Positions 33,484-35,318 of a DNA stretch of 64,000 nucleotides are shown here, one piece after another. Position numbers and translations under genes: made by a program. The notes beneath the pieces are model-generated. The model saw nothing but the letters and a program-made list of their open reading frames with translations. It ran no database searches and was not told the origin of the DNA. Within the stretch, counting starts at the first letter, position 1; every line of letters starts with the position of its first letter. The stretch comes from Cellulosilyticum lentocellum DSM 5427. GTDB lineage: Bacteria; Bacillota; Clostridia; Lachnospirales; Cellulosilyticaceae. The stretch covers positions 1,819,001-1,883,000 of the forward strand of contig NC_015275.1 of the NCBI RefSeq assembly GCF_000178835.2, read 5' to 3'.

Positions 33484-35318
33484 ATGTTTGTTATAGAAGA
33501 TGAGCTGAAACGACTGCCTGAAAAACCAGGCGTTTATTTGATGAAAAACGATTTAGGACAAATCATTTATGTAGGAAAAGCCATTAATCTAAAAAATCGT
33601 GTGAGGCAATATTTTCAAAGTTCAAAGAACCATTCTATTAAAGTTAAGAAGATGGTGCAGCATATTGTGAGCTTTGAATATATTATTACACGTTCAGAAG
33701 TAGAAGCACTTGTATTAGAATGTAATTTAATCAAAAAGTATGATCCTAAGTACAATATTCGATTAAAGGATGATAAACAGTATCCCTATATTAAAATAAA
33801 TACGCAAGATGCTTTTCCTCGCATGCGCGTTGTAAGGCAAATGAAAAAGGATGGCGCTAAGTATTTTGGCCCTTACACAGACGCTGCAGCTATGTGGGAG
33901 GTTGTTGACATTATTAAAAATACCTGGCCGTTACGTACTTGCACACGTAACTTGCCAAAAGACATAGGGAAAGAACGAGCTTGCCTCAATTATCATATTG
34001 GTAAATGTAATGCACCTTGTACTGGACTTATTGATGAACAAGCTTATGGTGAAATGATTGAGGAAGTCATCAGTTTCTTAAATGGTAAGTATAAAGAAGT
34101 TATTAAAAAGCTTCAAGCAGATATGATAGTTGCTTCAGAAAGTTTGCAATTTGAAAAGGCAGCTCAGTTAAGAGATCAAATACAAGCAGTTATGAAATTA
34201 GAACAAAAGCAAAATGCTACAATGAGTAGTATGTTAGACCAAGATGTTATTGCTTTTGCAAAAAGTCCACAAGATACCTTAGTGCAGGTTTACTTTGTAA
34301 GGAAGGGTAAAATGGTGGGAAGAGAACATTTTTATTTAAAAGATACAGAAGATGAGGTCATAGAAGAAGTTTTTCGTGATTTTATCGTGCAGTTTTATGC
34401 TAATGCAACCTTTATTCCAAAAGAGATTGTTATCGAAAGGATACCGAATGAAAAGGAAGTGTTAGAAAGCTATTTAGCAGAGAAGAAAGGAAGTAAAGTA
34501 CAACTGATTACACCTGTTAAAGGTACTAAACATGGTTTAATGGAGCTGGCAAGCAAGAATGCTGAATTAACATTAGGGCAATTTGGAGATCAGATGAAAA
34601 AGGAACAAGAGCGTACTGAAGGGGCTTTAGCTCAGCTTCAAGAAGCTATTGGATTAGAAAAACTGCCGTATCGTATGGAGGCTTACGATATTTCTAATAC
34701 ACAAGGAGTACAATCTGTAGGTGGTATGGTAGTTTTTGAAGGTGGCAAACCTAAGAAAAGTGATTATCGAAAGTTTAAAATTAAAAGTATACAGGGTCCT
34801 AATGATTATGGTAGTTTAGAAGAAGTATTAGACAGGCGATTCAATCGCCTTAAAGAAGAGCAAGAAGAAAACAGTTTCAGTAAGATGCCAGATTTATTGA
34901 TGATGGATGGTGGAAAGGGCCAAGTAAGCGTAGCTGAAAAAATGCTTGAGAAGTATGGGTTAGCTATACCAGTTTGTGGTATGGTTAAAGATGATCGACA
35001 TAGAACGAGAGGACTTCTTTTCCAAGGTGAAGAAATTGTACTACCTAGCGGTAGTGAAGGTTTTAAATTAATTACACGTTTACAAGATGAAGTTCATCGC
35101 TTCTCTATAGAATATCACAAAAAGCTTCGTAGTAAGGCTCAAGTACAATCCTTATTGGATGAGATTAAGGGTGTAGGGAAAGAACGAAAAAAATTATTTT
35201 GCAACATTTTAAAAGCATAGAGCACTTAAGACAGGCTACTCTTAGTGACATTGAACAAGTTCCCGGTATCCCTGCAGATGTTGCAAGCAATATATATAAT
35301 TATTTCCATAGGAATTAG
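33484..35318 (+). CDS. uvrC: Excinuclease ABC subunit C with a -1 frameshift near the 3' end
   Basis: The subunit that makes both incisions in nucleotide excision repair. The GIY-YIG nuclease domain is N-terminal (PGVYLMKND and IIYVGKAINLKNRVRQYF, about 15-50). A UVR motif (LQFEKAAQLRDQI, about 218-230) binds UvrB. The RNase H-like endonuclease is in the second half (YDISNTQGVQSVGGMVVFEGG). The zero frame stops at 35220 after GVGKERKK, giving 578 residues. The -1 frame from the A7 run at 35187-35193 continues ILLQ-type sequence as IILQHFKSIEHLRQATLSD to the stop at 35316-35318, restoring the second half of the helix-hairpin-helix domain and 611 residues in total. This may be a programmed slip, a real mutation or a homopolymer sequencing error. 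AAGGAGG precedes the ATG. Confidence 0.93.

Follow-up and report, generated by a model that had tools for sequence, protein, structure and literature searches.

The uvrC gene of Cellulosilyticum lentocellum DSM 5427 is broken by one base at an A7 run, very probably through an assembly error or a recent mutation

Results

In the deposited genome of Cellulosilyticum lentocellum DSM 5427, uvrC lies one base away from its in-frame state within an A-rich Arg-Lys-Lys stretch, and we consider it very probable that the break is an assembly error or a recent mutation, since relatives carry an intact gene, several of them have an in-frame A8 at the same codons, and the tail beyond the break is conserved. 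The window analyzed here is a stretch of 64,000 nucleotides from a single contig of 4,714,237 bases, and its features are collected in Table 1. All likelihoods given below are our judgments.

Table 1 Features of uvrC and of the frame break in the window
Feature	Position	Strand	Description	Basis
uvrC zero frame, 578 aa	33484..35220	+	GIY-YIG, UVR motif and UvrC RNase H domains; ends within (HhH)2	Pfam; TIGR00194 5.9e-178
SD-like GTAGGGA	35173..35179	+	seven bases before the A7 run; GTA GGG, coding for Val-Gly in the HhH hairpin, and one further base	
A7 run	35187..35193	+	zero-frame phase A_AAA_AAA; one-base frame break	sequence; comparison with relatives
-1 frame tail	35193..35318	+	41 codons plus TAG (35316-35318); remaining (HhH)2 domain	Pfam HHH_2
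9-bp perfect inverted repeat, 5' arm	35199..35207	+	begins 5 nt past the A7 run	
9-bp perfect inverted repeat, 3' arm	35278..35286	+	70 nt between the arms	

The uvrC reading passes from the zero frame into the -1 frame

The gene is preceded by an ORF that we take to be uvrA-like and followed by one that is presumably hprK-like, and its product scores 593.1 bits against TIGR00194 (cut-off 285.45). Across the break, the zero-frame codons are CGA (35185), AAA (35188), AAA (35191), and TTA (35194), and the frame closes at a TAG (35218-35220). The initial annotation had placed this stop inside the (HhH)2 domain and had proposed that the -1 frame, entered at the A7 run, encodes 41 further residues fitting the UvrC C terminus; both points were borne out. 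Read via the -1 frame, the protein has 570 + 41 = 611 residues and its end matches Pfam HHH_2 (1.4e-11) and HHH_5 (7.8e-9), while the zero-frame end has no Pfam match. In Pfam terms the UvrC domain set is complete: the GIY-YIG, UVR, and RNase H domains lie in the zero frame, and the (HhH)2 domain is restored only by the -1 frame. According to the portion of PMC7835731 available to us, this domain is required for single-strand binding and 5' incision.

A hexamer coding score, expressed as log-odds per codon and with long ORFs from this genome (uvrC among them) as training set, was 0.79 for the uvrC core, 0.45 for the -1 tail, -0.06 for the zero frame past the run, and -1.50 for the +1 tail. Together with the Pfam matches, the score of the -1 tail shows that the deposited sequence does contain the frame break and that the tail is no chance open frame. 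Nonsynonymous differences, compared as a tail-to-core ratio, gave 2.08 over the 11 pairs that include the window and 1.89 over the 55 pairs among 11 relatives. The tail is thus without visible decay and under about the same constraint as in relatives, which argues for a break that is either recent or not real; the undecayed tail is compatible with an error, with a very recent mutation, and with continued translation, and does not discriminate among the three.

No judgeable relative shares the out-of-frame uvrC end

The genus search covered seven genomes, one per species, and the family search 24 genomes, the own genome included. All six congeners have an intact uvrC of 610 to 614 residues, and one of them (G001) has exactly 611. 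Among the other family genomes, uvrC is present in 22 of 23, the exception (G018) having only a shorter GIY-YIG match, and the HhH end lies in one frame in 19 of these 22. In the remaining three, the gene ends at a contig edge (G016), is split (G008), or stops just before the HhH domain (G022). Of the other family genomes, 21 could be judged, and the out-of-frame layout of the window was absent from all of them. The same holds for loci taken from genome contigs, a set that overlaps the congener set because some of the genomes are the same: the uvrC end is in one frame in 79 of 80, at 610 to 642 residues, and the last (L017) leaves its record.

An order-wide search gave uvrC matches in 142 of 146 genomes, and among the matches listed only the own genome has its main uvrC end split over two frames. 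Seven order genomes with partial cover or a listed stop were inspected: in three (G047, G150, and G153) a contig end truncates the gene, two (G043 and G071) have a normal end, one (G107) has extra in-frame segments, and one (G137) has a divergent in-frame end. The initial annotation had proposed searching related genomes for the same layout, and no judgeable relative had it; an intact 611-residue frame in a close relative, which the annotation had named as a refuting outcome, was found in G001. Its suggestion of programmed frameshifting is unsupported. A conserved programmed frameshift is rejected on the same ground, the judgeable relatives being without the layout.

Other uvrC arrangements were observed in these genomes. 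The UvrC frame of G107 (L168) spans 807 codons and includes extra in-frame residues, some 75 of which cluster around UvrC position 462. The G012 genome has an intact uvrC and, elsewhere, another uvrC-like stretch (C104:5564-7343, minus strand), which is riddled with stop codons and is a decayed copy. The G008 gene is in two pieces, and its HhH portion lies on a different contig, where it is in one frame; one contig end matches the 5' part of Rfam RF02004 (1.3e-15; L114:2380-2482, plus strand), RF00029 is matched near the other (8.2e-11; L115:1404-1488, minus strand), and the gene appears to be interrupted by a group II intron between its pieces. The UvrC of G022 (L113:1134-2759) has 541 residues, ends just before (HhH)2, and is followed about 70 bases past its stop by an hprK-like ORF; it is a natural HhH-less UvrC. 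The own genome also holds a shorter UvrC relative (G000:C1:2450937-2452215; 360-codon frame, 34% identity), which from its size would be Cho-like, and beside it, on the opposite strand, a frame of 72 codons that gives a GIY-YIG-like match.

The same codons form an in-frame A8 in seven relatives

In family relatives, the motif encoded at the break site is Gly-Val/Ile-Gly-x-x-Arg-Lys. The same codons form an in-frame A8 in seven relatives (L004, L115, L116, L124, L125, L126, and L128, of which L125 and L126 are close relatives with an identical end), so that the window, with A7, differs from them by one base of homopolymer length. Three others (L008, L119, and L120) have an A7 heptamer in the same phase, and there the zero frame is the full-length frame; the other family relatives have shorter runs or a run interrupted by AAG or other codons. 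The simplest history is that an in-frame A8 contracted by one base, a direction of change that we infer. A mutation and a homopolymer error, both named as alternatives in the initial annotation, fit the intact relatives and the seven cases of in-frame A8.

Candidate stimulators near the A7 run

The SD-like sequence seen by the initial annotation is present upstream of the run, and its dnaX-like arrangement is explained by the codons for the conserved Gly-Val-Gly, so that its presence needs no regulatory cause. When folded, three downstream stretches (z-scores 1.17, -0.10, and -0.54) and the stretch across the slip site (z -0.24) were no better than shuffles. On these four stretches, a downstream stimulatory structure finds no support.

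The 9-bp inverted repeat that begins shortly after the run extends to 12 bp when G-U pairs are counted. Among 6000 sampled coding positions, 0.35% have a stem of such length at an equivalent location (0.67% if 12 bp including G-U are required), a rarity that is post hoc, as the stem was spotted after folding. The uvrC genes of 18 relatives, examined for an equal stem, reached at most 7 bp (9 with G-U). The repeat is probably due to chance.

A runs and frame switches elsewhere in the genome

As background, we sampled 864 kb of the 4.71 Mb, made up of the window and 40 stretches of 20 kb. The sample holds 421 long ORFs (at least 250 codons, both strands), which are open frames rather than confirmed genes and include the uvrC zero frame. 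These contain 175 A runs of at least seven (155 A7, 18 A8, and 2 A9), the uvrC A7 among them, and 63 in-phase A_AAA_AAA windows, uvrC included. ORFs with 150 or more aa contain 69 in-phase heptamers, 11 of them with an SD-like 4-mer upstream (uvrC is counted in both figures). A heptamer with an SD-like neighbor is thus not rare in this genome.

Frame switches were scanned in a first pass over 464 kb (runs of at least six) and a full pass over 864 kb (runs of at least five). The full pass gave 63 candidates, which a script rule divided into 36 that have, close to the break, a start preceded by an SD-like sequence and 27 that lack one. We inspected 17 candidates from the first pass and 11 from the group of 27 by eye; most were starts of the next gene, open frames in antisense, or IS elements. 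Under the scan filter, one other non-IS candidate break falls at an A run of at least seven. With 175 long A runs and one other such break, the assembly copes well with A runs elsewhere, which speaks against a sequence full of errors in general.

That other candidate is an A7 (L108:19279-19285, minus strand) between two open frames of 222 and 1661 codons, which seem to be parts of one large secreted protein; no homolog was found in the 23 other family genomes. The A7 with a -1 layout is also seen in an orfA/orfB pair present at two places (L111:9393-9399, plus strand, and L144:17713-17719, minus strand) that are identical at 1182 of 1195 positions. We take this element to be IS3-like, and its orfA/orfB pair is likely a genuine programmed frameshift.

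Discussion

As to the cause of the break, a wrong homopolymer length in the assembly as deposited has about an even chance of being the right answer, and a genuine slippage mutation that arose recently in the A tract is a serious contender whose probability falls somewhat below even. Frame breaks that occur in one genome and are validated by BLAST are expected to be sequencing errors, although breaks close to the 3' end have a relatively higher chance of being real indels, according to the available part of PMC3711429. In the accessible text of PMC3812077, indel formation and partial bypass both grow with repeat length, and an 8A repeat is among those bypassed. Our literature search returned no paper combining uvrC with a frameshift mutation, a pseudogene, and a homopolymer; the word uvrC is absent from the main text of PMC3711429 and from the first 300,000 characters of PMC5009743, and the available portions of PMC3416734, PMC3156400, and PMC5313616 did not reveal which sequencing technology had produced the assembly. 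Two points weigh against an error or a recent mutation: the good handling of A runs elsewhere in the assembly and the rare inverted repeat just downstream.

Transcriptional slippage on the A run would yield mixed mRNAs and both UvrC lengths, and we regard it as quite unlikely. There is a precedent in Citrobacter rodentium, where an A11 run gives two TssM1 lengths (PMC4256274, in the part available), and some slippage is plausible if the A7 is real (PMC3812077, likewise), but the uvrC run is shorter than that of tssM1, long ORFs in this genome contain A8 and A9 runs, and the uvrC layout is not conserved.

Programmed -1 ribosomal frameshifting at A_AAA_AAA, with the SD-like sequence upstream and with or without the stem downstream, would give two UvrC forms in this species alone; we hold this to be very unlikely. 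It can draw on a heptamer of the form X_XXY_YYZ in the zero-frame phase, the SD-like sequence at its distance of seven bases, the rare stem that the 18 relatives do not equal, and the A7 -1 layout of what we assume to be IS3-like elements in the same genome. In the consulted portion of PMC4066793, A_AAA_AAG or A_AAA_AAA makes up 72% of the heptamers found in IS elements, and A_AAA_AAA is among the motifs that shift at more than 0.10% in Escherichia coli without stimulators. However, the layout is absent from every judgeable relative, in-phase heptamers are common in this genome, the folds are unremarkable, and the stem was noticed only after the fact. Furthermore, in the three relatives with the same heptamer in the same phase, slipping would leave the full-length frame. 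A recent, lineage-specific recoding, in which the A7, the SD-like sequence, and the stem would set the ratio of full-length to (HhH)2-defective UvrC and so tune 5' incision in nucleotide excision repair, is equally improbable in our judgment; the 9-bp stem is the best point for such a signal, yet we give it little weight. In an A-rich genome, an in-phase heptamer and an SD-like sequence can arise by chance where Gly-Val-Gly and Arg-Lys-Lys dictate the codons.

Phase variation, in which replication slippage would toggle the tract between A7 and A8 and UvrC between truncated and full-length forms, is hardly credible: several relatives have A8 where the window has A7 and the tail is still intact, but the tract is short, and other relatives have shorter or broken runs.

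Under the reading that we prefer, an assembly error or a recent mutation, the consequences depend on whether the A7 is real. If it is, the main product would be a UvrC of 578 residues whose (HhH)2 domain is truncated, and occasional slippage of the ribosome or RNA polymerase on the A7 may produce some full-length UvrC as a by-product rather than through a programmed signal. The strain would then be a natural case of a UvrC with a damaged DNA-binding tail, to be compared with the HhH-less UvrC of G022. The practical consequence is small: the uvrC of the window deserves a flag that marks it as probably a sequence error or a recent inactivating mutation.

The uvrC site shares with the dnaX -1 programmed frameshift an A-rich heptamer in the XXY YYZ phase and an SD-like sequence upstream. 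It differs from dnaX in that the layout was not found in relatives, the SD-like sequence is explained by Gly-Val-Gly codons, the downstream stretches fold no more stably than shuffles, and the shift lengthens the product instead of shortening it. The A7 with a -1 shift is likewise shared with the orfA/orfB frameshift of what we presume to be the IS3 family, represented by the two copies in the same genome; there, however, the gene belongs to a mobile element, while no judgeable uvrC relative has such a layout. With Citrobacter rodentium tssM1 (PMC4256274, in the part available), uvrC has in common a premature stop past an A run in a gene that needs its C-terminal domain, but tssM1 has an A11 run with frameshifting proven by experiment, whereas uvrC has an A7 run at which slippage would be hypothetical. 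The closest match is with the GeneTack "singletons" of PMC3711429: like them, as that source describes them in its available text, the uvrC break occurs in one genome only, is supported by homologs, and affects an A run in a conserved gene, close to its 3' end, with no material difference between the two.
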